From contig JAFCMP010000268.1 of assembly GCA_017506865.1 (NCBI GenBank), positions 496,001 to 560,000 on the forward strand: 64,000 bases of DNA, written 5' to 3'. The notes under the pieces are model-generated. The model worked only from the letters and a program-made list of their open reading frames with translations, was not told the DNA's origin and did not search any database. This document shows positions 18,349 through 64,000 of the stretch, one piece after another. This DNA is from Tribonema minus (taxonomy: Eukaryota; Sar; Xanthophyceae; Tribonematales; Tribonemataceae). Both the position numbers and the translations under genes were made by a program. Each line of letters begins with the position of its first letter. Position 1 is the stretch's first letter.

Positions 18349-18505
18349 GAGTTGAGAGTGAATGCGATTGTGAAGCTCTAGCGCCGTGACATACATGTCT
18401 TGGACGAGTTAAGAGTGAACGCGATTGTGAAGCTCTAGCGCCGTGACATACATGTTGTGAATAGCAGAACAACGTGGCATACATGTTGTGAACAGCAGAA
18501 CAATC
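18349..18505. repeat. Direct tandem repeats upstream of LRR-like paralogue 2
   Basis: About 65-bp units share GCGATTGTGAAGCTCTAGCG then CCGTGACATACATGT (copies near 18363 and 18420). They grade into shorter copies of GACATACATGTTGTGAA(T/C)AGCAGAACAA. They lie in the proposed 5'-UTR intron of paralogue 2. A related but diverged sequence is present upstream of paralogue 3 at about 21130-21240, so the flanks were duplicated along with the gene. Confidence 0.7.
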
Positions 18506-18945: not shown

Positions 18946-19060
18946 CTGTACAACGTCGAATACGCCAGCTTCAGAGCGCCGCTTGTCAGCGCCGTCCGCT
19001 TAACGTTATTTACGATGTTGCTGAACTTCAACTGTTGTCGACTGAACTTCAATCGACCCC
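18946..19060 (-). other. Probable 5' non-coding exon of LRR-like paralogue 2, GC donor
   Basis: The block 18930-19000 is homologous to 21585-21660 upstream of paralogue 3, sharing TGCCGCTTGTC-like and CAGCTCTT-like segments. The donor at 18945 reads ACAG then gcaagagctg, so it would use the rare GC-AG class where paralogue 3 has gtaagagctg. An ORF at 18828-19412 covers this region. However, the equivalent frames in the other two paralogues hold stops, so I treat it as untranslated. The upstream limit is uncertain. Confidence 0.45.
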
Positions 19061-21029: not shown

Positions 21030-21600
21030 CTTCAGCCTGCGACAGCAATTTAAAAATGAGGAAACGTGTGCGAATAAGTGCATACTCAGAGTGGCAAGAA
21101 GCAGCAAAATGCATCAAACTGTGCACAAGCTGAACGCCACTACCGAGTTGGCAGCGAATGCAGTTCTGCAGGGCAGTGTCTTGCATGTTGTCAACAGTGC
21201 AGCAACACTGAGGTTTGACTTGCACTGTGTGGTGACACGCATTTGCCGTAACCAAACATGGATCAAAAGCAGCTACTGTAAGCATGGGGGCCTGCCCAGT
21301 GAGAACAAGGCGTCGAGGGCTACAGGATTACAACACATGTGCTTGCCACCACCCTTTCTTCGGCTTCAAGCTCGGTGAGCACAGGATCCCAGAAGGCTTC
21401 CGAATGGCCTCAAGATCCGCGCTGACGCTGTGCACGACTTTGAACGAAGTTCGCCAGGGTGATATCAGATGCTTCATCTACTAGACCTACTTTGCAGCCC
21501 ATGGATCGCACAAGGATTGCGTCGAGGGTGACATGTTGAGGATTAGACGATCAACGTCTTGGCGAATAGGTAAATTGTTTGCTGGGATGGCAGCTCTTAC

Positions 21601-27459: not shown

Positions 27460-34726
<7,267 letters not shown>

Positions 34727-38505: not shown

Positions 38506-41500
38506 ATGCCGGACTCAGCAGAAAGACCAAAGAAGAAGCACAGCAGCAGCAGCAGCAAAAGCACTGCCAGCGCCAAGAAAAGCAAACCCAAGCCCTCTGT
38601 TCCGCGCACAGGTCCCTCCTATGACATCTCCAATCTTCCCAGCGCCGCGACTGCGGAGAAGATGCAGAGCCTCGTCGATGCCCACGTGAACTCCTTCAAT
38701 CAGTTCTTGGACGAGGGCCTGAATGACGCGGTGCTGGATCTTCCGGACGTCGAGCTCAGGGTCGGCGAAGACGGGCCACTGATGCGGTTGTGGTACGAAT
38801 CGGTGGAGCTGGGGTATCCGGGAAGGAGCAGAGATGAGACCTCGGGCGCCAAGCTGGTTCCCAGGGAGTGCAGGGAGAGGAACCTTACCTATGGCGCCCC
38901 GATTCATGTCAACATCGCTTATCAGTTGGAGGGCAGCGAGGCTCAAAGGTGGGTGCTCCTCAGCAGACGCCATCGCTGCAACAGCAGTTAGAGGGCTGGC
39001 ATGTAAATGCACGGCGATGATGCTGTCACTCCATCCCCGAGTCGCAATACTGCTGAAAACTGACAGGCACGGTGCATGGGTGCTGTGCTTCATGAGTTGC
39101 GAAATAAGGACAAAAGCGATTGCGAGCAATGCAACTCCATCTCGGCCACCACCATACATTCGAAACTAATCAATCATATATTGCTGGACAGGTGTGATTT
39201 GACAGAAACGCAGCTGGGGCTTGCGCTTTCTTCAGTCAGCTCGCTCACCCGTGCATGCAGAATGACAGCGCCAACACTTGACAGACGCATTTGCTGATCT
39301 GCTAATTGTACACTGTGGCGTCTGAAGCTGCTTTTGCTGGTGAAGACGATGATGTTGCCTTGCGCATGCCCCTCAAATATTGCTGTCGGTCGCCGCGACG
39401 CTTGTGCCTTCGGCCATGCAATGGTGCTTTGCTGCACATACTTTGACTATACCACTTCACTGTGACACATTCTTTCAGCTGTTGGTGGTCATTATAGAAG
39501 CAGGCGCGAGGGCAACTTGACAGTAGTATATACACCCACATGATGCTGCTTAGTGCAGCTCAACCAGGCCAAGCTGCTGGTTCCTTCAATTTGTTACCAC
39601 CTACCGCTTACATCTAGGAGCCGCCATCCTCTGACAGCACTCGTTAGCAGCGCCGCTGCTTGTTCGCAGCTGGTCTCTATGGTGCGCTACAGCTGTCATT
39701 TTTCGTTCCAACAAGTAATTCAGCCCATGTCAGCTCATGTCAGTGGGCTTGCACCTGGTGATACCAGCGCTGTGCAGGCATGAATTGTACACGGCTTGTC
39801 ATGCCTACACCATGCAAAGGTGCAGCGGAATCGACTTGGCATGGCACGCGCTTGCGCCCGTCAATCACCTGGCGATACTCACCAGTAACTGACTATATGC
39901 TTCAAGTATGCAGGTTTGGAAAAAAGCCTGTCGTGCCTATGCCATGCAACACTGCAGTTGAAGTTACACTCTTCATCCACTTTCTTCTGTCAACCACATA
40001 GTACAGCGGCGCCTGGGTGAGCGTATGCAACACTGCAGTTGAAGTTACACCATTTACTTCTTTTCTTCACCTGCAGAGTACAGCGACGCCTGGGTGAGTG
40101 CCCCATTATGGTGCGCAGCAAACGCTGCCACCTGGCAGGCCTGGGGCCCAAGGAGATGGTGGCGCTGAAGGAGGAGGATACGGAAATTGGGGGGTACTTC
40201 ATTGTCGGGGGACTGGAGCGCGTCATCAGGCTGCTGCAGGTAATGCACATACCACAAGTGGAATGATTGAATGAGCGATACAACAAATCATGAATACGTC
40301 TTGAGGCAGATGCTCAAAAGCGGGAGAAATGTTGGGATGCTGCCATCTGGCGGGCCTGGGGCACGCTGGCGCTGAAGCAGGAGGATACGGAACTGGGGGG
40401 GTATTTTATTGTTGGGGCATTTGGAGCATGTCATCAGGCTGCTGCAGGTAATACATGTACAAGTCACCGATTGATTGAATGAGCGGTGAGGGCACGAAAA
40501 TGAAATTGGGGGGTAATTGGGGGGTACTTCTTTGTTTTGTTGGGGGTTTGGGGCGTGTCATCAGGCTGCTGCAGGTAATGCACTTGCAGTAAAAGTGCAA
40601 GTCGTTGAATGAGTGAAGGAGCGGTTGTAACCGAATCATTAATGCCATATTTTGTGGCAAGTGCTCAAAAGCATGAGAAACATGGGGATACGACGTTTGT
40701 TGTGCGGTTGTGCGAATAGATGGTGCAATGGGCTCTATCTGATGTGCACTCAGGTCGTGACGGCGTGGCAAGCCTTAGTGGTCCTGTGCTGCTGCTTGTC
40801 TGTGAACCGCAGCATATCATTCAGCTTCATTGAGCTTTTCCTGTTCATAGCCTGCCACAGTCGGCCACGCAGCCTGAAGTTCATTTTACACTTGAACTTC
40901 AAGTCATGAGTTCTTCTCTTGTGCCTGGCCGCTCCCAGTCGGCGCCTACATAGGATGTTCTACTGCTCTGGATATGTGCCATCAGACTCGTAAAGACCAC
41001 GCCGTCAGTGAACATCGGCCACTTTTCGCTGCCATGTTGAGTGCTGGTCACAGAGGAAGATACGTGTGGCTAATTAGAGCCGGGTAGATACACGTGGCTT
41101 ATCAGAGTCAGGAAACCTCGAGTGCTGATCACAGAGGAAGTTTGTGCAGTGCCATGGCCCATATGTATTGCTGCACTGCGAAGGAAGAATCACAAACGCT
41201 TTCATTGTCAAGGGTGCACTTGTGATAGCAAGCAATTGTACAAGTCGCACCTCTGAGAGAGCTCATGGAGTACTTGTGTGGATTTTGGTATTGAGTTGCT
41301 TGGGAGAATGCCTTTTCTGTCGGAGACAGCTAACCAAGGGCAATATGATTGCGTGGTTGTGTGCACTATTATGGCCAATTGAGGGTGCGTTTCTGTGGTC
41401 TCGTGTCATGTTGAAGTTGACAATGCGCTTACTTCAAGTGACCTCACATTCACTCAGTTTGTGTGCATGTCCGCACGTATGGCTGTTGTGCATGCTGTAC

Positions 41501-44500
41501 GACATTAGTTCACTACAGTCCACGGTGCTCAGACTGTGGCCAATGCTGATGGCAGATGCTAACGCTAACCCTAGGGAACGTGCTGTACAGCTCGATCAGT
41601 TTTATGTTTACTTCTGCAATGGCTGGGGGCAGTACGTGTGTATAGAGAGCTGCATCCAGATTCCGCGTTCATGTGGATGAGAGATTGATTTTCCAACGCG
41701 TGCGTACAACCCAATAGCGCTGAATTGAAGCAACGCCGTCAACATCACCTCCATGATTATCAAGTTGGAGTTCAGTGTTGGCGGCCCTGCCCAGCATGAG
41801 CTGCTGCACTGAGGTGGCACATCAGCTACATGCACTTTGCCAGCATTCTGCGTTCCGTATCTTTCAACATTACTAAAAGCATCATCAGCCGGTGCAGGGG
41901 AAGGTAACCCTAACTCTCACCCTTACTATAAGACATAGAAGTACACACTACATCTGCTGCACTCGGAGCGCACCCTTCTCTGTGTGTATATCCGTGCCGT
42001 ATGCCCTTGCATGTATGTGGTGCATGTGGTCACGCACTTCCAAGCGTCACTGCGTGTGAATCGGCCCTGGCTCGCCGCCAGACTCAAGCAGTGCTCATCC
42101 GTGTTTCACGTCACTCTCAGATTATACAGCAGCAAGCAGTGCTCATATCTGGTCACTGTCATGCACGAATGTATGTATGGTGCAGGTGCCGCGTCGCAAC
42201 CACGCACAGGCCATCCGTCGTTCCGCATTCAAGAACAGGTGAGCCCCACCACAGTGCTCAGCTCAAATTCAGTGCTCAGCTCGTACCGTTGCTTTGGAGT
42301 TCGTCTTTTAAGCAGCTGTGGTGCGGTGTGCTTGAATTGCGAAATTCTCCAGCTGCAGTGAGTTCAATTCAAGTAGCTGTGGTGTGGTGTGGTTGAATCG
42401 TTGAATGCTCACTGCGAGCCTCAGCGCTCATATCAGACCCCTGTCCCCCGGACGTTTGCGCTGCGGCGGTGGTATCAGAAACAAGCTGTTTACCAGAACA
42501 GACTCGTTAGGGCTGATGGAGCTCAAACCCCAGTGCTCAGCCGAAGCCTTCCCTCCCAGCTGCGCGCCCTACCAACTGTGGCGGTAATGCGCCCTAACCC
42601 TAACTCTAATTTAACCCTAACCCTAACCCTATACCTCTGCACGATGTATCAAATGAGATGCTAATCCATGCGTCAGCGAGAAGGCCGCGTGCTCAAAACT
42701 TCAACTGGGTGGCCACATGCGGCGAAGGCACTAGACCAGACTTGAACTAGAACAGGCGTGTCATGCCTGAAGGGTGCGCCAGTTGTTGCTGTCGAGGCTT
42801 GTCCTGAAGAAATGTGTGCGCTCCGCTTGTGCGACTAGTACCTGAATACACTTATTGGCACACCTGCGCGCCGCAAACCCCAATCGCCAACGAGCGCTGC
42901 TGCGCTGCGTCCGCTGAGATCGCTCGACTGCAAGTGTGACGCCCTACCATGTCTCTCGCACACCTGGTTCGCCACCAGCAAAGCTGACGGAGTTGACAGG
43001 GCAGCGCTGTACGATGGCTGGCGTGCCGACAATAACCCTAACCCCTAACCCTGGGCGTAGCGCAGTCATGCTGTGGATGCGGCTGTTCTTCAGGGTACCT
43101 CTTACGTGCCGCGCTTTCGCAGCGTCGCTACTGTACACACTGCGAAGCACACGTCAGAACACACTCCACCTGGCACCTTGAAGTGTTGCCAACTGCACTT
43201 CAACTTCGCCATTCAACCGCAGGGGCCAGGTGTACAGCGACCTGGGCGTCTCGATGCGTTGCGACCACTCACCACTGCAGCTGTGACGGAGTGTCACTTT
43301 GTCGAAGTACTGCCAGCCGCACTTCAACTCCACCCATCCAACCGCAGGGGCCAGGTGTACAGCGACCTGGCGTCTCGATGCGCTGCGGCCGCGACGGTGA
43401 CGCTCCACTACCTGAAGACAGGGGGTACTGTACACACTGCACATGTCTGAATACACTCCACTACCTTGCAATGTAACATCAATGAAATTCTGCCAACCGC
43501 ACTTCACCTTCACAACCCGACCGCAGGGGCCAACAGCGATCTGGGCGTCTCGATGCGCTGCGGCCGCTGCGACCACTCTTATTGCGACGGTGACGCTCCA
43601 CTACCTGACGACCAGGGGGTACTGTTCACACTGCGAAGCACACGTCAAAAATACACTCTACCTACCTCTGAGTGTCACCTTATTGAAGTGCTTGCCAACC
43701 GCACTTGAACTTCACAGGGGCCAGGTGTACAGCGACCTGGGCGTCTCGATGCGCTGCGGCCGTCGCGACCACTCCACCGCGACGGTGACGCTCCACTACC
43801 TGACGACCGGGGGCGCTACACTGCGCTGGTCCGTGCGCCGCGCCGAGTTCCTCGTGCCCGTCATGGTGGTCATCAAGGCGCTAAGGGAGATTTCAGACAG
43901 GTGCGCCCCAAAATGTTCATACCACTCCATGTCACCCAGAGCTCTACAATCTTCTGATTCTTTTTCATTGATAAATCAGATGCGCGTGGCGACCCTCAAA
44001 TTTGCCAGGCAGGTAGAGTTCGTGTGGGAGCTCAATGCAGAAGTACAGTTCCTCGTGCCCATCATGGTCGTCATCAAGGCGCTGCGGGAAATTTCCGACA
44101 GGTGCGCCTCAGAATTTTCTGTCAGGACGCGCAGAAATTTCCGTTCGCTGCGCGAGGTACCCCCCCCAAATCTCCAGGTAGAGTTTGTTCTAGGAGCACA
44201 AAAACAGTGACTCGTGCCGGTCAGTGTCCATCAAAGGCGCGACAGGTGCGCCTCAAGATTTCGTCGGTACGCGCAAAAACTTCCAGGCGCACTGGGATCT
44301 CAATGCAGTTCTTTGTGCAGGTCATAGTCGTTGCCATGGTGCTGCGGGAAGTTTTTGACAGCTGCGTGTGCAGCGTTCCAACGGGTGCACTTTCGGGGCC
44401 CAGAGAGTTGCAGCTCCTAGAGTCCATCTGGGTACACGAGGTGTGAGAACGCATGGAGTCCACTTGGGGTTCAACTGGACTCTAAGTACCTGCAGCCAGT

Positions 44501-47500
44501 GCATCCGCTTGCGAGTGTACTACGTTGTCGGCTGACCTTTCGCTGATCCAATGCACAGTTCTACATAGTTCCTTTTGACAGTTACAGTCACGGCACTGTG
44601 ATATTTCCGACAGGTGCGCCTCGTGACCCCAGCCTGTCAGGTGCACGTCATGGCTTGTGACCGCAGCTCGCCAAGTGCGCATCGTGAGACACTCGTCGGC
44701 ACGCTGAGGTACCTTTAGTCTCAAAATGACGAACAATTCATGAAGGGTGCTTCGGCTGTTGCTGGTGTGCTGAGTGCGAACTTTCGCCATGTAATTCTCA
44801 ACGGTCCATGGCACCTGCATCAGCTCATGAATGTTCCTCCAGTTCATGTAATTCTCAACGGTCCATGGCACCTGCATCAGCTCATGAATGTTCCTCGAGT
44901 TCATGGCTTTGGGCGCCGTTTCTGCAAACATCAATGTGGGTCTATCTGGTGAGGGGGGAGGAGGGCATTGTAAGTTCTCACATGCGGGTTGTAGGATCGA
45001 TACTTGCACCCATGCCCATCCCTGTATTTACTTCAACTCTTTCTGGACGCCGCTCACTTGCCCCTGTGTTTTAACTTCAACTCTTTCTGGAAAACTGTTT
45101 TGTCATTGCTCTGTACAACCGCGTCCTGGCGGGCTACCCCCTTTCCCAGCTTAAACGTCTCTCACCTAAACGTCAAATTCTGAGTCATTTTGAGGCTTCG
45201 CTTGACAGGGAGCTGCACTAGCGCGTGCTCCTGGCTTTCTCAAGCTCAACTCCTTTAACCTCTATGCGAACTTTGGTTCACTGCTGGTCATCGCTGAACA
45301 GGGAGCTCTACGAGCGCGTGCTGGCGGGCGACACCGCAAATACGCAGCTGGCGGCGCGGCTCGAGGTCCTGCTGCTCGATGCTGCAAGGTGAGGCATGCG
45401 CTATCGCCTGTACATACCCTCCAAGGCGCAAGCTATACATACCCTACACATACCCTCCGGAACACACTTCTTTATGCAATGCTGCTGCTCGATGCTGCAA
45501 GGTCAGTCACGCGTTGACTCTTGTACATACCCTCCGGTGCATACCTACGTGTGCGATGATATGCCTGAACCGACCTTTGCAGGCATGTGAAGTACTACGT
45601 CATGCCTTGCCATGACATGAGCCTAGGAGGAGAGATGTTTTGGGTTCACGGACAGGTGGCAGCAGTGTGTATGTCTGCAGGTGAGACTTGCATCACCGCA
45701 TGTGCGTGCCATGAGATACATACCTACGCTCTGACGTGTGGGGTCTCACCCCTGAGGGTACGCATGCGCACAAGCAGTACCTGGCGTCCCTGGGGTATGC
45801 TTTCGTGTCATCTTCCTCAGTATACAGTAGACATAGTACACACATGGGATGGTATCATTGCATGCTTTCCAAATATATATGTTTGACTCGTGGCCAATGA
45901 CTGCAGCAGCGGCGACCACGGTCATTTGTGGAAGCATTCAATTTGACGGCTAACCACACCTTGTCTCTAGAGCTCTACGATCTTTTGATTCGTTTTTCAT
46001 ATATAGAACTCACACATTGTCCATTTGTCTGAACTTTTGCTGCCAGAGTGGGGCTGAACACGCGCGAGCAGTGCCTGGCGTTCCTTGGGTCATGTTTCGT
46101 CGTCGTCTCACGCAGTATACATTGTACATAACATACATGACATGTAACGTTGTGTGTTTTCTCCATTCTGATGCTGCCAGAGTGGGGCTGCACACGCGCG
46201 AGCAGTGCCTGGCGTTCCTGGGGTCGCGCTTCCGCGCCGTCGGCAACCGCACCGACGTGCACAGCGACCTCGCGCTCGGCATCGAGATCATCAACAGGTA
46301 TGTATGTATGATGTGTTTCGTGACACATACTTGTTTACCCTAACCCAGTCTCTTGCGAGGTCGCCTCGGCGTTGAGATCATCAACAGATATGATTTGTTT
46401 TTATCGAGATGCCTCGAAGTACTTGCTTTTGCATGGACGCGCACAGCGACCCCGCCCTCAGCATCGCGATCATCAACAGGTTTGTACATACTTCAAGAAG
46501 TATGTATGATGAAATCATCAACTGGTACTAATGTATGATGTGATCAGTGATACATGCTTGCTGTTGCACCGACGCGCACAGCGACCTCGCCCTCTGCGTC
46601 GGGATCATAACAGGTATGTACACGTGTATGGTGAAATCATTAACCAGTACGTATGTATGATGTGTTCAGTAATACGTGCTTGCATTGGAATGGATGCTCA
46701 CAGCGACCTCGCCCTTGGTGTCGAGATCATCAACAGGTATGTATGTATGAGGTGTTTTGTGATAGATACTTGCGTACGCCAACATAAATACGCTAACACA
46801 GTCTCTGCGAGGTCGATGGAGGCGCAAGAATTCAAACAAGCTGTGGATCGTGGGGTCAGGGTTGGGGTTCGGGTCACATATCAGCAACAGGTAGGCAGTA
46901 TGATGATTGAGTGATGCATACTTGCATTTGCATGAATGCGCAGAGCGATCTTCTCCTTGGCGCTGATATCATCAACAGGTACATGTGTACTGTTTGATGG
47001 TGCTTGCTTATGGCATGCAGAAGGTCGTATGACCAATACTCCGCTGGGTGCCTTGGCTCAATGAGTTATTGCTCAACAAATTATTGCCCACTAAGGGCGC
47101 GAAAGACATATCATGGCCAGCATGTGTACTACCGCAGAGGGTGTGGCCTCTAGTCACGCAATAAAGCTGTTTAGACTGTGGATTGTACTGGATACGATCA
47201 TGCAGCGCCGTCTCTCCAGCAATGGCCTCGTTCAACATACCTACCCTTCTGGTGTGTCATCATCATCATCATCATGCGCATTTGTATCGTTCAGTAGTTG
47301 TGACAGGGGCTCCAGTAGCTGTGACATGTTACAGCAAACGGCTTCAGACACAGCTGCTTATTTTATTCATTGACACGGTGCTGACAGCGCAGTGACATTT
47401 TCTGCCTGGCGTACGCATCAACACGGGGCAACGCTCAGCATATGCATCAACATGCACTGGGCAGCGCTGAGCATACTGAATTCACATAGCCCCAAAATTG

Positions 47501-50500
47501 GCGGCACGCGAGCTGCTGTTGTGAGCGGCATCTTGCAGTGCGCCTTTCAAAAGCATGAAGGTGACGTCATTCCTGGGGGAAGGGCCACCAGAAGCATCGT
47601 CATAATTGAGATTAGATGCAACTCAGTAAGATCAAAGACACGCAGCAGCGCTCAGCATGCCTGTCCCCACCACACGTTTCGTGTGCAGGCACGTGCTGGT
47701 GCACTTGAAGCGCCACGAGGACAAGCAGGAGACGCTCCTGCACATGCTCAAAAAGGTGACTCTCCACTTGCGAATGGCATGCTCGTTCAAGTGCTTGCAC
47801 ACATGTTTTTTCCCCGTTTGTTTGCGCTGCCACGTGAGACCACTGTCGTCTTGCTGATCTAGCCCTACTCTAACCTGAATCCTCATGCTCAGCAGGAGAC
47901 GCTCTGCACATGCTCAAGAAGGTGACTCTCCACCTGTGAAAACACCTTGTGCGCATCGACCCATGCTGTTTCCCAGCTTGCTGCTGATTTGTGGCTTAAA
48001 GTGATGCAACGCTTGTCTTCGCGTGCTAGACCAACAGAACTTAATCGCGATCCGACCGAAAGTTGATCCTTAACTTCAAGCAGGAGACGCTCCTGCTTAA
48101 GAAGGTGGTTCACAGGTGCAGCGACATGCTCATGGACTTACATGCTGTCTTAAAACAGAGTTTGGAGTAAGTATTATATTACTGATGCCGCTGAGCTTTC
48201 CTGCTGTGTCTGCTGCGCTACTGCCACTTCTACACGTGATCATGGTGGCCTTCACATTGGGCGGTGTTGTTGAGGGGATGATCACCTTGGCTTCCTGGCA
48301 TTTCCGCTTTTCGTCGCCGCCGCTGTTGCTACTGCTGCTGCTGCTGCTGACGCGCTGCTGCTGCCGCTGCCGCCTTGCCCCTGCCAGCTGTACACGTTTG
48401 CGCAGGGCGGCTGCCGTGAGGACAACGCCGATGCGCTCAGCAATCACGAGCTTCTTCTGGTGAGTTAGTGCCTGAGTGCTTCAGTAATTGCTTCAGTAAC
48501 AGAGTAACAGACGGTTGCCGCGAGGACAACGCCGGTGCGCTCAGCAACCATGAGCCTCTTCTGGTGAGTGAGTGAATAAGTGTATGAGTGCTTGACTGCT
48601 TGAAGTTATTGCGAGCACAACGCGAACGTCGCGCTCAGCAGCCATCAGCGTTGTCTCGTGAGTCAATGTGTGAGTCAATGTGTGAGTGACTTGGTGTTGA
48701 GAGACTGCCGTAAGGACCATGCAGACAATGCATCAGCAGCCACTTCTTTGTCCTGGCTAGTGAGCGAGTGACTGAGCGCTGAGTGGCTGCCATCAGGACA
48801 ATGCGGACGCACTCCAGCAATCGTGCTGGTGGATGCGCGGGTGAGCGAGTGAGTGAGTGAGTCGGTGAGCGAGTCAAATCCTGCTGTTGGGGTACTGATG
48901 AGTGAGTGCACTGCACCTGCAGCCTGAGCACCTCTTTCTCATGTACATGAAGGCAAAGCTGTTTGACGTACTTCTGATGCTGTGCGCAACATGTACACGA
49001 ATGTTAATCCTGTATGTTTATGCACTGACATGCAGCCTGGACACCTGTTCGCCATGTACATGAAGGAAAAACCACATGACATGCTGGCCTAAACACACTT
49101 ACAGGTACTTCAGAAGTATCATTGCTTTGATTGCATTCAGCTCTCTGTTGTCTAACATGTTTCCGCTTCACGTCATGCCTTTGCGCAGCCCGGGCACCTG
49201 TTCACCATGTACATGAAGGAGAAGCTGTTTGACGTGCTGGTCAAGGTGCGCAGCGAGCTGTTGAAACAGTCGCGCATTGACGTCGCCAAGGCGCTTCTCG
49301 CGGCACAAGACCCGAAGACCATCATCAAATTGGTGGACAGGTGAAAGAATAACCAGTTGATTTCATGAGCTATCAATGTACATGAATGAATTCATGAAGT
49401 ATGAAAGCAGTCACGCATCGACGCTGCCAAGGCGCTGCTCGCGGCGCAAGATCCGAAGAGCATCACCAGCTGGTGGACAGGTGAAGGGTTTCATGAATTA
49501 TGAATGGAGAAGTATGTTAATGATTTTAGAAACTCATGAAGCAGCGAATCGGTGTCGCCAAAGCGCTGCTCGCTGCGCAAAGACTCAAAGACCATCATCA
49601 AGCTGGTGGACAGGTGGATGAATTCATGAAGTATGAATGTTCATGAATGATATCATAAAGTGATGTATGCTCTCATACCCTCTTTTCAAAGGTGAACACT
49701 TGTGGAAATGAAGAGCCTTGTTACATCAAGAGTATGTGCCTTGTACTTTGAGCCTTCTATGTTGCAGTTTTGCAGTACTGTTCTGCGCAGGTATGGTGTG
49801 GGCACCAGTACATCCCCCCCCCCCCCTCCCCCGCTCTTCAACCCGATTGAGACCCCCCTCACGTTTCCCTCTGCGCAGGTACGGCATAGGCACCGGGCAG
49901 CGCATGGCCTCATTCCTCTCCACTGGCAACATCACCACGTCCACCGGGCTCGACCTTATGCAGGTTAGTGGCTGCAGCATGTCTCAGCGTCTGGGTAGGT
50001 ATGCGGCGATAGCAGCATGCCTCAGCGCTTGCGGTAGGTTTGAAGCGACTGCAGCTAGCAGTGACCAACCCCTGATTCGGCATCACGCCTGTAGTTGGTC
50101 AGTGTTGACATCGTGATTCATACTTCAGATTTGAACAGTAGTGGCACACGAACTTTGTGCCTGTCCGTGACTGCAGTTCAGCAGTTTCACGTTAACTGCG
50201 TGTGCATCCATTCATTTCATCATTGATCCGTGAGTCTGGTCTGGTTCTAAAATCGACCAAATACCTCCGCTCTGTTCAATCGCGCTGAGGCGGCAGTGCT
50301 CCCGACGATCGCAAGGTTCCGCTACCATGCACTTGTCAGCCATACACACAGCCCATGTATGTATGATGCAGGGCAGCCGTTTGCCTTAGGTTAGGAAGAG
50401 GGCAAGGGTTAGGATTAGACACTGTGAACAGCTCCGGCACTGCCCAGCCAGTGGTTGCGTTTATGAAAATTACAATGGGCACAGCAACAATAGTTCATGC

Positions 50501-53500
50501 TGTTGTACATCAGGGTTAGGGTTAGTGCGGGCCAGCGGCATTAGGGTTAGGGTTAGTGCAGGCCCGCGGCTTTATCAGTGTGTACCGCTTGCTGCTCACT
50601 TTGAATTGGAGTGTTGGAGACAAAAGACGCAAGTCACGGTCTTCGCATTGCCGCAGGCTAGCGATTCACGAGCGTACCGCTTACTGCATGTATGTGCGTA
50701 GAAGTATACTTCGAAGTGTCATCACAAGTAAACGCAAATGATAATTTTAAATACATGTGGTTTTCAATGCTGCAGGCCAGCGGTTTCACGGTGGTGGCGG
50801 AGCGCATCAACATGCTGCGGTACCTGAGCCACTTCCGCTCCGTGCACAGAGGGCAGTTCTTCACCACCATGAAGACGACGGCCGTGCGCAAGGTACGTAC
50901 GCATGTACTTCAAAGTATGTACTTCAAGTATAGAAGTATGTTTTGGATCGTATGCATGTATGCGTACGGAGGGCAGCTCTTCACCACCATGAAGACGACG
51001 GCTGTGCGCAAGGTATGTATGTATGTATACGTTTTCATTTGCATGCAGGCATGTGTGTGTTGGACATTATGTTCCAGTATGATCTGTGCAGTTGCTGACT
51101 ATACTACGCGTAGAGTCTCTCCATACGATCTTGATATTCCGCTAAAATCGCAACTGAATCGACTTCTGATGATTTCCATCACGTGTGAAGTACCTTGTCA
51201 GCTGGGTAGCAAGCTTGCGGACCAGCTGCGTCAGCATGGTCATTTGCTGATGCCAGCAGTGACCTTGCGCACTACGCACCAGCTGAAATTGCTTGTCCGA
51301 AAAGCGTAAGCCAGCATTCGTCGCACGTAGCTTGGGAGGTGTGCAGGCTTTGCCACACGTGCTGTACCTTGAGAGCGCGCCCCCTTCAATGCGCTGCACA
51401 GGTTGAGCGCTGCTGCCGTTTTAGGGTTTGGGTTTGGGTTAAGGTAAGGGTTAGGGGGCTCCTGTGCCCTTACCAAATGATGCCCCCCGTATCTTCCTCA
51501 CTCATACATATCTACATGCCCGCACACGTGCCACATGCATGTGCTGAGCGCTGGTGCTTCTTGACATTTTGGGTCCTCCTGTGTTGCGTGCTTTCGCAAA
51601 CTGATGCCCGCTGGGTGTTGCTCACTCTCGTGCCTACATACCTACATACCTGGCCGCACGTGTGCGGAGCGCTGCTGCTGCTGCCCCTCTCATGCCTACC
51701 TACCTGACCGCACATGTAACCATGCGTGAAGTGTGTTGCAGTGCTCGCGACTAGTCCCGCGCGGGCTGCAAACATCCAACTGCAAGTGCGTCACAAAGTG
51801 TCTTCTGAAATTGCGTTAACAAGCTGCTTTCGTGTGTGCTTTACGTGTGTGTTGGCTGCAGTTGCTGCCTGAGAGCTGGGGGTTTCTGTGCCCCGTGCAC
51901 ACCCCCGATGGCGCCCCCTGCGGCCTGCTCAACCACATGGCCGCCGAATGCCAGGTACTTCAAGTATCAGTCGCAAAGTTTTTCGTTCCGCGTATTGGTT
52001 CGATGGCGCCCCCTGCGGCTTGCGTAACCAAATGGCCGCTGAGTGCCAGCTACTGCAACTATGTACTTGAAGTATTGCCACGAAATGTTTGTTCCTTGTA
52101 TTGGTTCGCCCCAGCGGCTTGGCCTAGGCTTTTCAAGCCTAGAAACACATTTGAAGTACTTCTACATGTAATTTAGCTTGTTTGCCGTTCCTACGCCACA
52201 CGTCGAGCTATGTACTTTTCACTGAGCTATGTACTTTTCACTGACGCCCGCTGAGGGCGCAAAGCAGCCCACATGATGGATGTCAAGCTTGCTACCATGG
52301 TTTCTACTTGAAATGTGCCTACAGTGATGTGCATCGATGCGCATCGACGATCACGCATATGTCGAAAATGCAACTTGTTCAACTTGTGCCGTTTAACATG
52401 CCAGTGTCGTGCCACCAAGTGCCAATGCTGACGCTGCTCTCTGCACCGCCGTTGCTGCTGCGCGTTGCGATGGTTAGGTAGTGGCAGCTGCCCCGCCGCC
52501 AATCAAGTCTGACAAGGGGACCCTGGAGCAGGTGATACTTCGTGCATTGCATGCAGAGCTTCAGCTTGATATTGCTGAGATGGGAGCGTTGCTGTTGAAG
52601 TTCAGGAGCAACAGTGCTCCAAGAAGCGAGGCGTCAAGACGCATGTGATCTGCCTTGGCGCCCCAGACACACGTCCATAGTCGCATGTATCTATCTTGAT
52701 GGTGCATATGCGTTGTTTCCGTTCCGGCATGTGGAGCATGTCCTGATGGATATCATTGAACGTGTGAGGAACGCTCCATGAAGTTTCTGACAGCGCAGCA
52801 GCAGAGTGGATCTGACACCAGTAAGCTTTGGTGCGGCACACTAAATTTTTGAAGCCACGTACAGCTGACCATTACTTGCGCTGCCATTCTCTCGCGCAAA
52901 TGTGTGGGCTGCAACTAGCTATGAACTGCAAGCTGAAGTTCCAAATCGGATTGCACTGCGATTGCTTAGAAGCAAAGCTGCAGTATGCCTTTGACGCCAA
53001 TCCGCCGTTGCTCTGCAGCCGCCTGTCCCCGTACTTCACCTGTGAAGGACGTGTATTTAACGGTGTATTTAACGGTGTACATGCGCTGTAGGCGGTCGCT
53101 ACGGCATATCCTGGTGATTCTGGACATGGCGCCAGCTTGAAGGCGTACATTTGCATTTCCGTTCGTGTATGTGGAGCATGCGACAGCGGATGCCATTGGA
53201 GTGTGAAAGCACCGCTTCATTAAGGTTATCAAACTTCAAGTGCACAATTGCAAACGTCAACTGCACGATGAACTTGGCCACCATACACGCGTCTTGGCTC
53301 TCCCTGCAGCAGCACCATGGAACTTCTTGTTTCTGACGTGTGTACACACACTTGCTGTATCTTTTTTGCTGTGGCAAATCCTTGTGTCTCTGGGCATGAC
53401 GCCGTCCGGCATTGAATATACTTCTAATAGAACTGTTTGCTATCTTTCTGGAACCTTAACTGCATAACGGGTTGGACACCTATGCGCCTTGGCCCTGCAG

Positions 53501-56500
53501 CCGCTCAAATGAGCTCCGTGTTTATGACATGTGTACATACATGCCTTTGCTGTTTCCATTGTTTCTGCACAGATCCTTGTGTCCCTGGGCATGACTCCAG
53601 CTGGCATCGGCTCAGGCGATGGCTCCACCGCGCTGCCGTACTACTACATGCCCGTCATGGTGGACGGGCGCGTTGTCGGCGGCGGCACGCACGAGGTGAG
53701 CGCAGTGCTCAGCACCTGGTATGTAGGTATGCACCAGCTGTTGTACATACTACATGCCCGTCATGGTGGATGGGCGCGTTGTCGGCGGTGGCACGCGCTG
53801 TCGGCGGTGGCACGCGCGAGGTGAGCACCATTGCCCAGCAGAAATGCACCTGGTATGTAGGTATACACTAGCTTTTTTACTACATGAAGTACATACATAC
53901 CATATGCCCATTGTGGTGGATGAGCGCGTTGTCGGTGGCGGCACGCACAGGGTGAGCACTGTCATGAGCCGGAGCAACGTTGCTCAGCTGAAGAGCGCTG
54001 GCATCAAGGTATACGTATGCAAATTGTTTAATACCACTTCATGCAGACTGTGGTGAATGGGGCACGCTGTCATGAGAGGCGGAAATACCAGGCATGCAGG
54101 TACCCCAACCCAAACCTTTCCCGAATCCTAATCGAATCCAGTTTTCTGACCCTAATCCAGCACCACGTCTTCGCCGCACTCCACAGATGTTGACCCAAAT
54201 CCTAACTCTATGTCCAATTCAACTCAACACAATGAGTGCATTGCTCAGCAGGGATGCACCTGGTATGTAGGTATGCACGACACTGCTGCACTGATACCTA
54301 CCCATCGCGGTGAATGGGGCGCATGGTCGGCGACAGCGGCTCGCACAGGGCAAGCGCTGTCATGAGCAGAGCAGCACTGCTCAGCAGCAGCCCTGGGTAT
54401 GATGGTATACGTCTACATGTATGCAGGTTGTTTTACCACTACATGCAGGTTGTGGTGAACGGGGCACGTTGTGAGCGGCGGCACGCACAGTGTGAGCGCT
54501 GTCATGAGAGGGGGGCAGTGCTGCCAAATGCCAGGCATCTAGGTAACCTAGGCCGAAGATTAACCGAATCCAATTTCTTATCCCAATTCAGCTCAACACA
54601 ATGCGCCACCTTCCTCGCCGTGCTTCACAGAAGTTGCAGCCGGGATCCGACCCAATATCAACCCCAACCCTGACGCAGCTCAACACAATACCCCATGTTC
54701 TGTGACGCGCTCCACAGACGCTGCAGGCGGTTTCGCGATGCCTGTGCCGCCCCAAGGCAGCTAATTTGTGCCATCAACCTTTTCATGATTTCAAATCTCA
54801 TCCTGATCTTAACTCTCACCCAGCTCAACTCATACATCACCTCCTTCGCCACGCTTCGCAGACATTGCCGGCGGTTTCACGCTGCTATACCAGGCATGTA
54901 GGTGCCCTAAGCCTGGCCTGATCCCTGATGGAACTCAATTTTCGACTCCAATCCAGCTCAACACAATGCACCACCTTTTACGCCTTGCCCCACAGAGGTT
55001 GCAGGCGGTTTCGCGAGGCCTGCGCCGGCTCAAGGTTGCAACGCCCCCTGCCGTGGCCATGGAGGTGGCATGTAGGTACCCCTAACCCAAACCTAGGCCA
55101 CATCCTGACCGAATCCAAATGTTTTATCTCAATCCAGCTGAACTCATGCGCCACCTTCTTTGCCGCACTTCACAGACGTTGCAAGCGGTTTCGCGAGGCC
55201 TACGCCGGCTCAAGGTGGCGACGCCCCCCGCTGTGGAGCCGACCATGGAGGTGGCGCTGCTGCCGCCCATGAAGAAGGGCTCCGGACCGTTCCCGGGCCT
55301 GTTCCTGTTCACTGGGGCCTCCAGAATGATCCGGCCGGTGAGCTCGTTGAGGAAATGTTGAAGCACCTACCTACAATGTATGTGTCAGTGCTCTGCAAAG
55401 TACAAGCATGGAGGAGCATCACGGCAGTGCGCTGCCTGTGTCGCACTGTGTCACAAACTGAAGTTCAAAGGGGCCTCCAGGATGATCCGGCCGGTAAGTT
55501 TTTGCACGGCAACTATGATGAAAGCTGGTATGCCAGTGTTCCGCAGAGCGTGCATATGAGCACCGCTGCAAGGCGCGGCGGTGTCATGCACTGCTGCAGC
55601 ACACACATTCCAACCAAGAACTGTGACATGTTAGCGCGATGCAGGAATGGAGAGCGTCAAAGGTCCACAGGGGCTTCCAGGATGTTTCGGCCGGTAACTT
55701 GTCTTTGAGGAAACGTTGAAGGACCTGCTTATAATGCCTGTGTCAGTGCTCTGTGAGGTGCAAGCGTGGAAAGTCACGGCAGTGCGCTGCCTGTTTCGCA
55801 CTGTGTCACACAAACTGTGCTGAAGTTCACTCGTGCCTCCAGGATGATCTGGCCGGCGAGTTTTGTGCACGTCAACTATAACGCAACTGGTATGCCAGTG
55901 TTCCGCAGAGTGTGCATATGAGCACTGCTGCAAGGCGCGGCGGCGTCATGCACTGCTGCAGCACACCCATTCCAACAAAGAACTGTGACATGTTAGCATG
56001 GAATGGAGAGTGTCGATGTTCACAGGGGCCTCCAGGACGATCCGGCCGGTACGCTTTTTTTAAGGAAACCTTCAAGTACCTGCGTACACGTCTGTGTCAG
56101 TGCTCTGCAAAGTGCAAGCAAGGAGCCATGTGTGTGCGCAATGACAGGAGGTCAGACATGCGCTTGCCTCGCATACTTGAAGTACCAGCTTCAACTTGAG
56201 CTCCGCTTCCACCTATCTCACAGTGCTCACTGACCCCCTCCCCCCCCCCCCCCCCTCCTCATTTTCGCATACTACCACTCCAAACAGGTGTTCCACCTAT
56301 CTCACAGTGCTCACTGACCCCCTCCTCCCCCCCCCCTCCTCATTTCGCATACTGCCACACCAAACAGGTGCTGAACATTGAGTTCTGCAAGCGCGAATGG
56401 ATCGGCCCTCTGGAGCAGCCGTTCATGGAGATTGCGTGCCTGGCATCAGAGGCCAAGGGCACAGGCGCCACGCACTGCGAGATCGACCCCACCAACATGC

Positions 56501-59500
56501 TCAGCCTCATCGCTAGGCAAGTGAAGTTCAAGCTCAGCGCACTTGAGGTTTCTTGTCGATGGCCCCCTTTGCCACGCTGGGTTAGGGTTAGGGTTAGGGT
56601 TAGGGTTAGGGTTAGGGTCCTGCCACGCTGACCATCGAAGAGATGGAGCTTAGCGTTGCGAGGGGCACCTCACAAACCGCCCAGCAGCTGCAAGTTTGAA
56701 AGTGCAGCAGTGGAGCAGTTCAGCAGGGCAGTTGACATTTGGCTCAGCGGCGCTTTGTTCGTTGAGCTATAAACTGCGCGCGTGTGCTCCATCCCAGTGC
56801 TAAGCAAGTGACGCAGGCGGCTCAAGTTGAGCAGGGCGATCGCGCTTGTGTTTTCACAGCAGGGCTGCAAATCATTCTAAATGTCAATCTGAAATCATCT
56901 CCAATGCCCAGGGATTACTGCCTCCTTCGTGGCCAAGAACACTGATTGACGCGTTTCTTCCTCGCAACTTCAACGCTGTGACTCTCCTCCGCAGCCTGAC
57001 GCCCTTCAGCGACTACAACCAGTCGCCGCGCAACATGTACCAGTGCCAGATGGGCAAGCAGACCATGGGCACCCCCGCGCACTGCCTGTACCCGCACAAG
57101 ACCGACAACAAGGTTCGTACGGTACTCCCCATGGACAGCCCTCTCCCCCTTGAATAGCTTGGGGGGGAGGGCTATATGGCTGAGTACCCCCCCCCCCCCA
57201 GATATTGAGTTTTTCATTTACATTGGCATGCATGCAATAGCCTGGGGGGGGGGGGGGGGGGGGGGGGTTGAATAACGTGAGGGGTGGGGCGCTACGCATG
57301 TATTTGTACAAGACTGACTAGCAGGTGCATATCTCGGCATCTGGCGGCGCGCCTGTCTACATCATGTACTGCACTACACTGCCACCTGCAAGTGTTCACA
57401 ATTGGTGCTTCCTCTACACAGAGCGCTTTGTGAACTTGCAGTCCCAAGCTGACGGCAAGTTGAAGGTCAACTTAGCGTATTCAAAGCCTTGGTCGAGACC
57501 TGGTTTAAGTGACGTTTGCACCAAGCATTTGGCAAGGCTGGCAACAAGGTGCGCCAGTAGTACTGGCGCAGCTGCCAACGCAGGCACATGGCAGAGCAGA
57601 TTTTTGACAAAAAGTTGTATGAGGGAGAGACTAGCCATGATGAAACTTTAGGCCCAGCTCACTATTAGACCCCCCTCCCCGCAAAACGTGGGGGCAACAG
57701 GGGGGCGATGCAGACAGCTAGTTCTTATTCTGAGCTTTCTCTCCCTCCTTCGCTGAACAGCAGTAACTCTTGTGTCCGTCGTCGTTGCAACACATGCAAG
57801 GGTCTTGAAGTGGTGCCTTGCTTGGCAGTACGCTGTGCAACCAATTGGTGTGCTGCACAATGGACTGTGCGTTGCATTGGCGGTATAGGTCACTGCCGCG
57901 CTGCTTGAAAGTGTGCAGTCGGTTACCTTTCTCAACACCAGCATGTTGCATACCTTGAAGTACAGGTACTGATACTGCAGTTATTTGACGCATACCTACG
58001 TACCTGCTGTGCACGCCGCTCCGCAGGCGTACCGCATCCTCCTCCCAAAAGCGCCGTGTTTCATACTGCGATGTGCGGCATGAGTGGCAACACACTGCGG
58101 CACGTATGCCGTCACACTAGTGTTTGCCATCGCGGTGCTCAATGAGCAACTGCACAGGAGCACTGACACTACTGTTGTGTAAGGGATAGCTATCACGTGG
58201 CTCAACGAGCATCTGCATTGGAGCACTGACACAGCTGCCGTGTGCGGTATACCTACATACTTGTCGGTCAGTGACCGTTTGATGGTGTAGATAGCGCATG
58301 TGTTACACGTTCGACACAGCACATGTGTACACAAGTTGCATGCTTTGATCCTCATAGGGTTTCCGCTGCCCCCTCAAGCGGAAGTAAACAATGTATACCT
58401 ACATACTTGCTGTGCACACCGCTGCGCAGATGTACCGCATCCTGTTCCCGCAAGCGCCGCTGGTGATGACGCGCCGGCATCGCGAGTTTCAGATGGACAA
58501 CTATCCACAGGTGTGCACCACCAAAAACTTCAAGCGCTTGAAGTACACAAACTCAGAAGTGCTGTGTTTGGGGCACAACTGTTGCTTGGAAGTATCACAC
58601 CTGACGCTTATCATATGCACCATCAACAAAGTGAAGTATTTCGAAGTACAAAAAACTTAAAAAAAAAGTGCTGTGTTTGGGGAACGACTGTTTTTGGAAG
58701 CATCACAGCTGACGCTTATTATCATCAGACCTGAAGCGAAGGATTCATACACACGTGTGCTGGTACTGGCCAACTGTCGCCTCTACAAAGCACGGAACAC
58801 GCGCCAGCTGCTTGCAGCTCACAGAATCGCGCGTGTGCTTAGGGTTAGGGTTGGGATAAGGAGTTAGGGTTAGGGTAAGGATGAGGATTAGGGTAAGGGC
58901 TAGGGTTAGGGTTACGATTTGCGTCCGCACCTTTCTGCTGCGTTGCATGATTCAGCAGTGCAATGAGCTCTGAATGCGCCCCTGTCCGCGGCATCAGTGC
59001 TTCTCGGCAGTTTCTCAGTGGGTATGTATGCGTCTGACACGTCCAATCATATCAATCGATTGTCGCGGTCGTTGCTGGTGATCATCATCATCGCGAGGTG
59101 CCCCAAGCAGGTGCTGCAATGGACCATCACGAACGTTACTCACATGCCTTGCAACGCCTCAGGGTTAGGGTTAGGGTTAGGGTTAGGGGTAGGGATAGGA
59201 ACGACAAGCGCGGAAAGGAAAGAAAAAGTATGTATGCATGTCACACACATTTAACCATATCAATCGATCATGGTGGACCTCGCTGGTGATGATCATCATT
59301 GCAAAGTGCTCTAAACAGGCGCTGCAATGGCTTTGGTGATGCTCAACGAGTTGCTCCCGTTGTTGTCAGTGGATATGTATGCATGTGACACACAAACAAT
59401 CATACCAATCGATCATTGTGGACGTCGCTGGAGATCACCATCATTGCGAAGTGCTCCATATAGGCGCTGCAATGGGCCGTGGCGAACGTACTTCACACTT

Positions 59501-62500
59501 CTTGCACCGCAACGATGGCAACGTAGAAATGAATCAGGCGACCACGGTTTTTGGTACAAGGCATTTAACTCGACGGCTCACCACATCTTGTCACCTACAG
59601 CTCTACGATCTTTTGATTCGTTTCCAATGTGAGGATTGAAGCCTTCCACACATTGGTTAGAAAGTGGGCCCAGTTCCTGAAGAGTTCTGGCCAGTTCTGA
59701 GGCCAGTTTCCGAAAGGTTCTGCATTTCTTAAATAATGTGGAAGGAAAGAAGGCAGTGTTGGCAGCGATTAACTCCACAACTGTGACCCACACCTGTGGT
59801 GGAATTCATCATGATTTGTCAGTTGTCTATCACGTGCAATGCAGAACTTGAATAGCGTGCTCGGTTGCAATGCTGTGATGGCAGGGGACAAACGCGGTGG
59901 TGGCGGTGATATCATACACGGGGTTCGACATGGAGGACGCGATGATTCTCAACAAGAGCGCCTTTGAAAGGGGCTTTGCGCACGCCAGGTGAGCCAGTGC
60001 TACTAATAAGATGCTTCTGTTCAGAACTGACGAATAGCATGTTTATGTATGGGAGTGGCAATAGAGTTGCCAACAAAGGATGCCATGATTCTCAACAAGA
60101 GCGCCTTTGAAAGGGGCTTTGCGCACGCCAGGTGAGCCGCTGCAACTAATAACATGGTTCTAGAAGTGACTGTAGGTCCCAGCAAAGGATGCCATGAACT
60201 AACAACTTGCCATCTGTTCAGGTGAGCCGCTGCAGTTAATAAGAACCGTCAAATAACATGCTTCTGTATGGGAGTGACAATAGTATTGCCAACTAAGGAT
60301 GCCATGACCTAATAATGTGCTTCTGTATAGAAGTGGCTGTAGTCTGGTGGTACCAAGAAAACGTGCCATGATCTTCAGCAAGAGCTCCTTTGAAGGGGGC
60401 TTTGCACACACTAGTGCGGCATTGCAGCTAAATCGAAGCTTCTTTGTGTATGGAAGTATACGTTCAACACGGTTTTGTGTACCAGTGACTTCATGCAAGG
60501 TTATGCCATGATTGTCAACAGAAGCTCCTTCTATAGAAGCTTTGTGCATGCCAGGCGAGCCACTGCAGCTAGTCTCATAGTGAGTGAAGCCACAATCACT
60601 GTAAAAAAACGGTGTTGTTGCACTGACTTTCAGTCGGTGCAACAAACGGCTCTAGTCGGGCGATTTGCTGGTACAATATCTGCAAGACACTACATGAAGT
60701 ATGTGCTTTTGATTACTGAGTGCAGCCGGGTATAGTATGCAAGCGCTGCAGTGCTCAGGCAACATGCGCGTCATGCAACTTGGACTGTGACTCTGATCAT
60801 GACTCTGATTGTGACCATGATTGTGACTCTGCAGCGTGGTGAAGACGATCAAGATCGACCTCAAGGACCTCCTCACCAAGAGCGACAGCAAGACGATGGT
60901 GGTAGGTGCCGCGCATCTGGTGCATTGTCTCAAAACTGTCCCTCTCTCTGCCTCTGTGTTTGGAACTTTGGATCTTGTTTTATAAAACGTCAAGCAGTGC
61001 TGTCAATACAGACAATTCTTCTTCCATAGTGCGTGACTGCAGTTCTCAAAGAGTCAGCAGCTGCCATGTTCGTGCTGTTTTGATGATCCTTTGGTTGCAG
61101 CGTTGCACATGTTATGGGCCGCCGCAGCCCTGTCGCGTGCTCCTCATTCTTACCCTAACGCTCCCGCACTTTCCCTCAACCCTAGAATTATCTGAATGTT
61201 GGCTATTGACACATATTGGGTGCAGCAGCCTCAGTTCAGCAGGCGGCAGTGCACTAGATATTGCGCGCATGTACTGCCATCATTGCTATGCGCATGTACT
61301 GCAGATGCACATGACAGCAGGGGCGTTTGTAGGAACAGATTGAAACAGATGAGGCACAAGGCTCAGACTGTTTCTTATCTGAATGAATTCGACGGTCACG
61401 TTTTGACGCAAGAGATGGGCATTGTCACTCCTGCAGTCACTGCAGTGACCAGATGCGCAACTGCTCAGCAGGCCGTGCCGTAAACAACAGCACCTTATTT
61501 TGAACCTCCACACCCCCCCATTCACTCTCCCACATGATCAGGGCAGCATGCACTTCACTTAAGCAGCCATTGACGCCCCCTTCTCCCCCCCCCCCCCGCC
61601 GCCTCAAGCTCCCCCATCATCAGCACAATGCGCGTTCATTGTCGCAGCTGCTGACCCTCCCCGCCCGCTCCATTCTCCTCCATGATCAGGGCAAGATGCG
61701 CTTCACCAACACCGCCGCCGACGGCAAGGGCGGAAAGCTGTACGAGAACCTGGACAACGATGGCCTGCCGCGTATCGGCGCGTGCGTCAAGGAGGGGGAC
61801 CCCCTCTACTGCGCCATCGACTTGCGCACTAATAAGACCAAGGTACGTGCACGCAAATACTGACCAATGCGTGCGTTCCTATCCATATACTTCTGAAGTA
61901 TGTGATATTGTGGACATATGCTTCAAGGTGTTTCGTCCATGGGTATCGTTGCGCTACCTTACGCATAGCATCAACGAAGTGGAGTTTTTGCACTGCACGT
62001 TAACTTGCGCACCGACAAGGTCCGCCAACAAGGGTGCGTGTCACTCCATGTATGCTCATTTTTCTGTCGTTGCCCTCAGCGGTACGTCTGGAATGCAGCT
62101 TGACATGCAAAAAAAAGTAGATTTCCTGTCGGTGTTGCCATCTCGCGTTACACACGACGGCAAGGAGGGAGACCCCCCCTCTGCGCGATCAACTTAAGCA
62201 CCAGTAACAATAATGTGCACAAAGCTGTTCACTGCACTCAAAGTAGATTTCCTGTCGGTGCTAGCGGCTTGCCTGACACATGGCAGCAAGAAGGGACAGA
62301 CCCCCTCTACTGCGCGAGCAAATTGAGCACCAGTAACACCAACTTGTACGAAGCTGTGTACTGCACAAAGCTGTCTACTGTACACAAAGGATGCATATAT
62401 CCCCAAATCCCATAAAATGCTCATTTGCTTGTCACCACTGGCACTTGAACATTTGAAGGCAGTTGCCCCTCTCTGCTCTCTGTTGGCACTGACTTCACTC

Positions 62501-63798: not shown

Positions 63799-63862
63799 GT
63801 GTGTATGCTCCTGAAGTTGCGATGCCAGAAGTGTGGTATTAGGATGACATATCGGTGAAACG

Positions 63863-64000
63863 TTGTCAAGTCGCCAGGGGCAGAAGGGCGTTGTGAGTAT
63901 ACTCTGGCCGCAGGCATGTATGTATGCTCTTTGACATTTGGTTCCAGAAGTGCATCATTAGGATGACATACCAGTGAAACTTTTGTCAAGTCGCCATGGG
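63863..64000 (+). repeat. Exon-ghost array: Pol I exon 23 end plus donor, continuing off the edge
   Basis: 63863-63912 has GTCAAGTCGCCAGGGGCAGA, then AGGGCGTTGTGAGTATACTC and TGGCCGCAG, gcatgt. It copies the active-site SRHGQKG code with one change that would give GAEGR in the wrong frame. A next copy begins at about 63984 (TTGTCAAGTCGCCATGGG). The intronic AGGATGACATA.C.GTGAAA recurs with a period of about 120 bp. Confidence 0.92.

Follow-up and report, generated by a model that had tools for sequence, protein, structure and literature searches.

In tandem exon duplication, a whole exon is duplicated next to itself together with both of its splice sites, and introners are elements of which one is copied into many genes. 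Vaughn and Bennetzen are said to have described the patch-repair tandem duplications of rice in 2014. Here, we analyze RPA2, the gene for the second-largest subunit of RNA polymerase I, in the xanthophyte Tribonema minus, whose introns 1-21 and part of intron 22 lie in a 64-kb stretch of DNA (hereafter the window). The window belongs to a contig of 1,059,158 bp, one of 554 in an assembly of 158.18 Mb. The closest described event is in a potato RdRp gene, where, according to the available part of the report, one recent tandem genomic duplication across an intron-exon boundary created a new intron (PMC4974935). Tandem duplication is also a recognized route of intron gain in the accessible text of a second source (PMC2891723). 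For rice, the portion available of a third report states that insertions arise most commonly by tandem duplication, that such duplications are enriched at 50-200 bp and attributed to patch repair, and that between 125 and 200 bp their share of events drops from 70% to 5% (PMC7971508).

In RPA2, decayed copies of exon edges recur inside the introns that adjoin those exons, and we consider it very likely that these introns lengthen by repeated local tandem duplication, where a unit lying across an exon edge leaves a displaced copy that decays. The copies are direct in orientation and adjacent to their source, most testable ones include intron flank that was copied along, the youngest units stand head to tail, decay is neutral-like, and whole-exon copies are absent from RPA2. 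Intron growth is usually hard to read because both copies of a duplication decay. When a duplication spans an exon edge, selection holds one side, so that the exonic part records change along a single neutral branch, and the flank and the silent sites record it along two.

Exon-edge copies in the introns of RPA2

RPA2 lies on the plus strand from position 38506 of the window to ~69341, running past the window end (64000) and stopping in the adjoining 10 kb (L010). We started from the public Rpa2 protein of T. minus, P0121 (1169 aa), which a spliced alignment reproduced letter for letter, and then curated the model in three places. The exon at 43223-43282 was removed because it copies the start of the exon at 43718; an exon at 48388-48459 was put in, its sequence being conserved in relatives such as P0123; and a 25-nt exon at 68158-68182 (L010 4158-4182), which overlaps another edge copy (68159-68199), was removed, with the last exon now beginning at 69215. 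The curated model has 27 exons and 26 introns, with exons totalling 3510 bp, introns totalling 27326 bp, and a single open frame of 1170 codons, although part of the exon edges are based on homology alone and a small unrecognized exon is possible between exons 12 and 13. The 22 introns that an earlier interpretation of the letters alone (the sequence-only reading) had counted in the window correspond to introns 1-21 and part of intron 22.

Public protein P0121 itself treats the decayed exon-start copy at 43223-43282 as an exon, which doubles a 13-residue motif, and it lacks the 24 residues of the conserved exon at 48388-48459. In the EukProt transcript P0001, which is 98% identical in exon 1, a piece of exon 3 runs directly into a piece of exon 5, and the transcript continues into intron 7, such that it shows odd splicing or assembly relative to window 38506-47854.

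We probed each intron with the last 60 nt of the preceding exon and the first 60 nt of the following exon, using 300 dinucleotide shuffles per edge as the null. Of the 52 edges, 30 exceeded every one of the 300 shuffles (the donor edge of 18 introns and the acceptor edge of 12, out of 26 each); for the acceptor edge of intron 17 and the donor edge of intron 21, the margin was just 1-3 score units. By either edge, 22 of the 26 introns were positive, the exceptions being introns 10, 15, 19, and 24; this is the comparison of edges with shuffled sequence that the sequence-only reading had proposed. When the 30 positive edges were compared with the 23-24 introns not adjacent to them, trimmed to no more than equal length, no equally good match was found. 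Scores for the opposite exon edge never exceeded 80, other than for exons 7 (106) and 8 (160), whose shortness makes their two probes overlap.

For counting copies, we used a fixed score of at least 92, a cut-off picked after the shuffles had been inspected, and a few edges had a single best shuffle of 93-99. At this score, 64 copies were found in 20 of the 26 introns (45 donor-side and 19 acceptor-side), compared to 0 in the reverse-complement search at the same threshold. Wholly within the window are 49 copies in 17 introns, with one further copy spanning the window end, which bears out the earlier claims of more than 40 copies and of at least 17 of 22 introns containing them. Exon-end copies sit downstream and exon-start copies upstream, all in direct orientation, also as claimed, and in all eight introns with both kinds, the donor-side copies come before the acceptor-side copies. 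Altogether, 10406 of the 27326 intron bases (38%) lie in stretches bounded by an exon edge and the copy farthest from it, and subtracting these edge arrays leaves intron lengths down to ~100 bp (intron 8).

The model has GC instead of GT donors in introns 15 (window 56517) and 24 (L010 1842), both of which belong to the four introns without any edge copy.

Copied flank, unit length, and arrays

The flank was tested in the 48 copies that reach the junction with room, against a null obtained by placing that flank randomly within non-adjacent introns. A null drawn from the same intron was contaminated by copies (only 4 of 48 above its 99% level) and was therefore replaced. The adjoining intron flank was also homologous in 36 of 48 copies at p ≤ 0.01 and in 41 of 48 at p ≤ 0.05, in agreement with the earlier statement that the intronic flank is copied too. 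Since the flank was copied together with the edge, the source was genomic DNA and not spliced RNA.

The nearest copy lies 77-401 bp from the functional junction, with a median of 161 (28 arrays). Four of the youngest units have an aligned length and distance of 78/77, 197/228, 175/211, and 151/180, and these ratios (0.83-1.01) are as head-to-tail duplication demands. Together with the co-copied flank, they support the ordinary tandem duplication put forward by the sequence-only reading. Among all 28 nearest copies, the ratio of aligned length to period was 0.80-1.01 in five and ≤0.7 in 23 (median 0.52), and in most of them little beyond the exonic part and a short flank can still be aligned. 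Ratios of ≤0.7 are probably due to old intron flanks that are no longer alignable. In the two arrays that were aligned (introns 3 and 22), copies share changes that are missing from the functional edge, and since these changes are shared among copies only, arrays probably also grow by re-duplication of copies.

A whole-exon copy with both splice sites was found for 0 of the 25 internal RPA2 exons, looking for an acceptor junction downstream or a donor junction upstream with a score of at least 85. If units of the observed periods fell randomly, 3.9 such copies would be expected (P(0) = 0.008), or 2.8 without the two longest periods (P(0) = 0.04). The missing whole-exon copies fit the removal of duplications that add an exon to the mRNA.

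Decay of the copies

Across the 64 RPA2 copies, mismatch at codon positions 1, 2, and 3 was 0.129, 0.108, and 0.245. The third-position ratio of 2.07 is near the value of 2 expected if the displaced copy drifts freely while the exon changes at silent sites only, giving two branches versus one. The intron flank is free to change on both sides of a duplication. Divergence was 0.127 in the exonic part versus 0.221 in the flank (ratio 1.74, Wilcoxon p = 3e-8) for 36 copies picked for a recognizable flank, and 0.146 and 0.246 over all 48 testable copies. Both the codon positions and the flanks support the earlier view that the exonic part stays visible since the functional copy is conserved.

Donor-side copies retained GT in 24 of 35 cases and acceptor-side copies AG in 10 of 13, close to the 25.8 and 9.5 that the divergence of the individual copies predicts. 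Copy decay is thus neutral-like, with no sign of kept splice function. Exonic divergence ranges from 0 to 0.35 (median 0.15), and this spread suggests continuing duplication and not one burst. The farther copy was the older one in 46 of 62 within-array pairs, with a Spearman correlation of 0.46 across the 64 copies.

Exon-edge copies at other loci

The pattern is not special to RPA2, which corrects the earlier note. We examined 18 loci with at least two ordered Pfam hits (proteasome, DEAD helicase, and Rpb2 paralogs), made up of 16 of 20 loci (the four single-hit loci being excluded) plus L011 and L012. An edge copy was present in 14 of 25 inter-exon intervals and 12 of the 18 loci, and the reverse-complement control gave 1 of 50 probes, in a locus with a true inverted repeat. 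The other six (L011, L013, L023, L024, L026, and L027) had no edge copy. A second sample consisted of coding segments predicted from codon bias in 26 loci (four at arbitrary places) and in the remainder of the 84-kb region containing RPA2, with RPA2 excluded. Here, predicted edges facing a same-strand neighbor had copies in 48 of 172 cases versus 3 on the reverse complement, and the remaining 68 predicted edges in 9 versus 1.

An MSS116-like helicase (contig C24, public protein P0241) carries copies in its first four introns out of four, 14 in total and 0 on the reverse complement. Only exons 1-5 of this gene are trusted because the analyzed piece ends before the gene does, and introns 5-9 as modelled, beyond the trusted part, had no copies. 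Mismatch by codon position in the helicase was 0.073, 0.077, and 0.151, and a near 2:1 codon ratio is seen in two genes (RPA2 and this helicase). At L011, an Rpb2 paralog (contig C457, 478001-488000), 0 copies were found at 12 predicted edges. Altogether, edge copies are widespread in the genome sample but not present in every gene.

Unlike most other multi-exon loci sampled, L011 is nearly without local duplicates (1% of windows).

Table 1. Coordinates of the RPA2 gene, its exon-edge copies, and the short dispersed repeat (window positions unless stated)
Feature	Span	Individual positions	Strand	Remarks
RPA2 exons 1-22 and introns 1-22	38506-64000		+	intron 22 partial; tblastn, spliced alignment, protein P0121
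Intron 1, one exon 2 start copy	40000-40023		+	unit 77 bp, head-to-tail
Intron 2, two exon 2 end + donor copies	40387-40574	40387-40447, 40512-40574	+	
Intron 3, three exon 4 start + acceptor copies	43223-43578	43223-43279, 43348-43408, 43527-43578	+	first copy annotated as exon in P0121
Intron 4, three exon 4 end copies	44047-44361	44047-44101, 44206-44248, 44307-44361	+	
Intron 4, one exon 5 start copy	45111-45140		+	weak
Intron 5, one exon 5 end + donor copy	45480-45501		+	
Intron 5, two exon 6 start copies	45754-46106	45754-45811, 46047-46106	+	
Intron 6, five exon 6 end copies	46355-46978	46355-46387, 46431-46479, 46566-46613, 46682-46736, 46924-46978	+	
Intron 7, two exon 7 end copies	47891-48096	47891-47921, 48077-48096	+	
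Intron 8, four exon 8 end copies	48510-48822	48510-48563, 48611-48656, 48699-48755, 48776-48822	+	
Intron 8, two exon 9 start copies	48923-49091	48923-48982, 49036-49091	+	
Intron 9, two exon 9 end copies	49422-49613	49422-49480, 49554-49613	+	
Intron 11, one exon 11 end + donor copy	50962-51012		+	
Intron 12, one exon 12 end copy	52001-52049		+	
Intron 12, one exon 13 start copy	53378-53414		+	
Intron 13, five exon 13 end copies	53743-54488	53743-53798, 53799-53820, 53892-53948, 54286-54346, 54434-54488	+	
Intron 13, two exon 14 start copies	54718-55055	54718-54763, 54996-55055	+	
Intron 14, four exon 14 end copies	55463-56048	55463-55493, 55663-55693, 55825-55855, 56011-56048	+	
Intron 16, one exon 17 start copy	58029-58081		+	
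Intron 18, three exon 18 end copies	60077-60554	60077-60131, 60365-60414, 60492-60554	+	
Intron 20, two exon 20 end copies	62158-62342	62158-62213, 62283-62342	+	
Intron 22, three exon 22 end copies	63854-64000 in window	63854-63913, 63983-64033, 64090-64148	+	second copy crosses window end
Short dispersed repeat		45861-46016, 59537-59623, 33244-33363, 2683-2759, 43921-43968		
Short dispersed repeat, further loci		L017, L018, L021, L025, L028, L035, L036		

Alternative explanations

If duplication were aimed at splice junctions, for example through co-transcriptional structures at donors, exon edges would be copied more than other intron DNA. A sliding scan of 60-nt windows over the 84-kb region found a local direct repeat in 54% of RPA2 exon-edge windows, 44-45% of intron windows ≤400 bp from an edge, 32% of deeper intron windows, 37% of windows inside exons, and 8% of those upstream of the gene (inverted repeats, ~1% of windows or less). 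The edge windows of RPA2 are thus the highest, as are windows across predicted coding edges in most other locus groups (0.24-0.34), and donor-side copies outnumber acceptor-side copies both in RPA2 and in 25 other loci (55 versus 31). However, the excess at RPA2 edges is ~1.2-fold over nearby intron, and it lends little support to targeting because edges, where one side is conserved, remain recognizable longer. Counted by same-strand edges with copies, the 25 other loci, a sample that excludes L011 and the 84-kb region, show no donor bias (21 donor-side and 21 acceptor-side), and 0 of 35 edge windows are duplicated at L011. Purely intronic duplications also occur, as the sequence-only reading had said, including a tandem pair at 44788-44905 with 98% matches. 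Edge targeting is not supported, the edges being barely special, and we regard this explanation as quite improbable.

Were the copies maintained by selection as functional decoys or alternative splice sites, the GT or AG found in many of them and the use of one copy as an exon in P0121 would be in keeping with this, but the dinucleotides are retained only at the level of neutral decay, codon positions 1 and 2 differ at half the third-position rate, as one free branch predicts, and the related transcript P0001 lacks the exon made from the copy, though P0001 also skips exon 4; such a role is therefore very improbable. An origin of the introns by insertion of mobile introners or transposons, with common ends that mimic exon copies, is in our view extremely unlikely. 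One dispersed short repeat does occur in introns 5 and 17 and at other loci, but each copy is private to its own exon, with no equally good match for the 30 positive edges in the 23-24 non-adjacent introns, and the 17 cross-intron BLAST hits were, among the matches listed, all TTAGGG-like runs or one short repeat (similar introns were sought within RPA2 and against 26 other loci only). Tandem duplication within genes is a proposed and sometimes supported route of intron gain in the available parts of two sources (PMC4974935, PMC2891723), and Rogers-type duplication of an AGGT-containing exon piece could have given birth to these introns, with the copies as birth remnants. Such a birth predicts the downstream exon start at the 5' end of the intron and the upstream exon end at its 3' end, whereas the opposite order is seen in 8 of 8 introns and most testable copies include intron flank, which leaves only an exceedingly slim chance for it. 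Assembly error in a repetitive region has next to no chance of explaining the copies: misassembly of tandem repeats can occur, but the exonic copies differ by up to 35% (median 15%) and are gene- and strand-specific, and the same pattern is seen on other contigs.

How the introns may grow

Under repeated local tandem duplication, units of ~80-400 bp would keep arising in introns. When a unit spans an exon-intron junction, the copy nearest the exon body would stay in use, and the other, along with its donor or acceptor, would end up within the intron and decay there without selection. Repeated events and re-duplication of copies would then build arrays at one or both intron ends, while selection may remove duplications that alter the mRNA. 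The duplications could arise when nicks or breaks lying close together are repaired with errors (patch repair as in rice), or from slippage or unequal exchange inside arrays. By analogy with rice, we infer that end-joining repair of nearby nicks would be the likeliest source of the shorter duplications, and that slippage or unequal exchange is likely for the multi-copy arrays.

Several observations weigh against this account of intron growth. The median aligned length is about half of the period, such that a head-to-tail arrangement is seen for the youngest units only. The earlier claim that copies usually decay with distance holds as a tendency among pairs but is weak by array (13 versus 6, p = 0.17). 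In intron 3, the copy at 43348-43408 has an exonic divergence of 0.02 and a flank divergence of 0.17, unlike a single duplication; this copy may have undergone gene conversion with the exon, or it may be in use. The third-position excess is just 1.56-fold in the wider sample of predicted exons (0.119, 0.121, and 0.187). Finally, no breakpoint is fresh enough to tell repair from slippage, and rice-type patch repair would not explain the longer distances found here (median 161, up to 401).

A broader idea is that introns in the T. minus lineage are lengthened by a mutational engine of tandem duplication that is tied to transcription or splicing and spares intergenic DNA, in which case introns would be datable layers, with conserved exon edges as one-sided clocks, and ancestral introns much shorter. 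We consider this unlikely, if conceivable. With same-strand gaps of ≤2 kb as a rough stand-in for introns (RPA2 excluded), mean duplication was 0.224 versus 0.132 in opposite-strand gaps, and 39 of 90 same-strand gaps reached at least 0.2 versus 5 of 28 opposite-strand gaps (Fisher p = 0.015, at a cut-off of our own choosing). The difference was not significant by gap (Mann-Whitney p = 0.23; p = 0.15 without L011). Because the codon-bias coding predictor recovered just 17 of 27 RPA2 exons, confinement of duplication to introns remains a hint.

Exon edges could become internal clocks, with the rate, size, and turnover of intron growth read from a single genome. On the practical side, gene models can take copies for exons, as in the public T. 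minus RPA2 protein.

Other features of the region

Telomere-like TTAGGG/CCCTAA runs of at least two units occur at window positions 42592, 42615, 50541, 56582, 58839, 58864, and 59165 and at L010 527 and 1410. There are 31 such runs in 336 kb, and 9 of the 11 in the 84-kb region are inside RPA2 introns, whereas six permuted hexamers gave none. These runs could mark breaks healed by telomerase. A short dispersed repeat is present on both strands (34-126 bp aligned, 14 hit rows in 336 kb including itself; Table 1), and it looks like a SINE- or MITE-like family. Upstream of RPA2 lie a reverse-transcriptase open reading frame and three long minus-strand open reading frames with FNIP repeats (L009 4516-8712, window 14702-21113), and this stretch is poor in local tandem duplicates.

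Comparison with known systems

The sequence-only reading knew of no named description of such a gene-wide pattern. That stands for the arrays: no description of gene- or genome-wide decayed exon-edge arrays, or of such arrays in Tribonema, was found in the literature searched, with most subscription journals being outside the search. The single type of event is already described in the available part of the potato report (PMC4974935).

Like the potato RdRp event as given there, the RPA2 events are local tandem duplications that cross an exon-intron boundary and copy splice signals, but RPA2 has dozens of copies that lengthen existing introns, where potato has a single one that made a new intron. 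Internal tandem duplication is likewise a published source of intron change; in the accessible portions of those sources, it yields new intron positions or the propagation of whole introns, whereas RPA2 has decayed edge arrays in existing introns. The similarity to rice patch repair lies in insertions of 50-200 bp that, in the parts of the reports at hand, are often perfect tandem duplications (PMC7971508 and the review PMC7407515). On the other hand, the rice events described there are young, segregate between varieties, and include few >200 bp, while events of many ages are piled up in one gene here, at distances of up to 401 bp.

As in tandem exon duplication, exon sequence is doubled adjacent to itself, but whole exons were copied in none of the 25 internal cases. 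As with introners, intron change is systematic across the genome, but each RPA2 copy matches its own exon. Together, these comparisons indicate that the single event is known, while the saturation of introns with such events and their use as a one-sided clock appear to be new.

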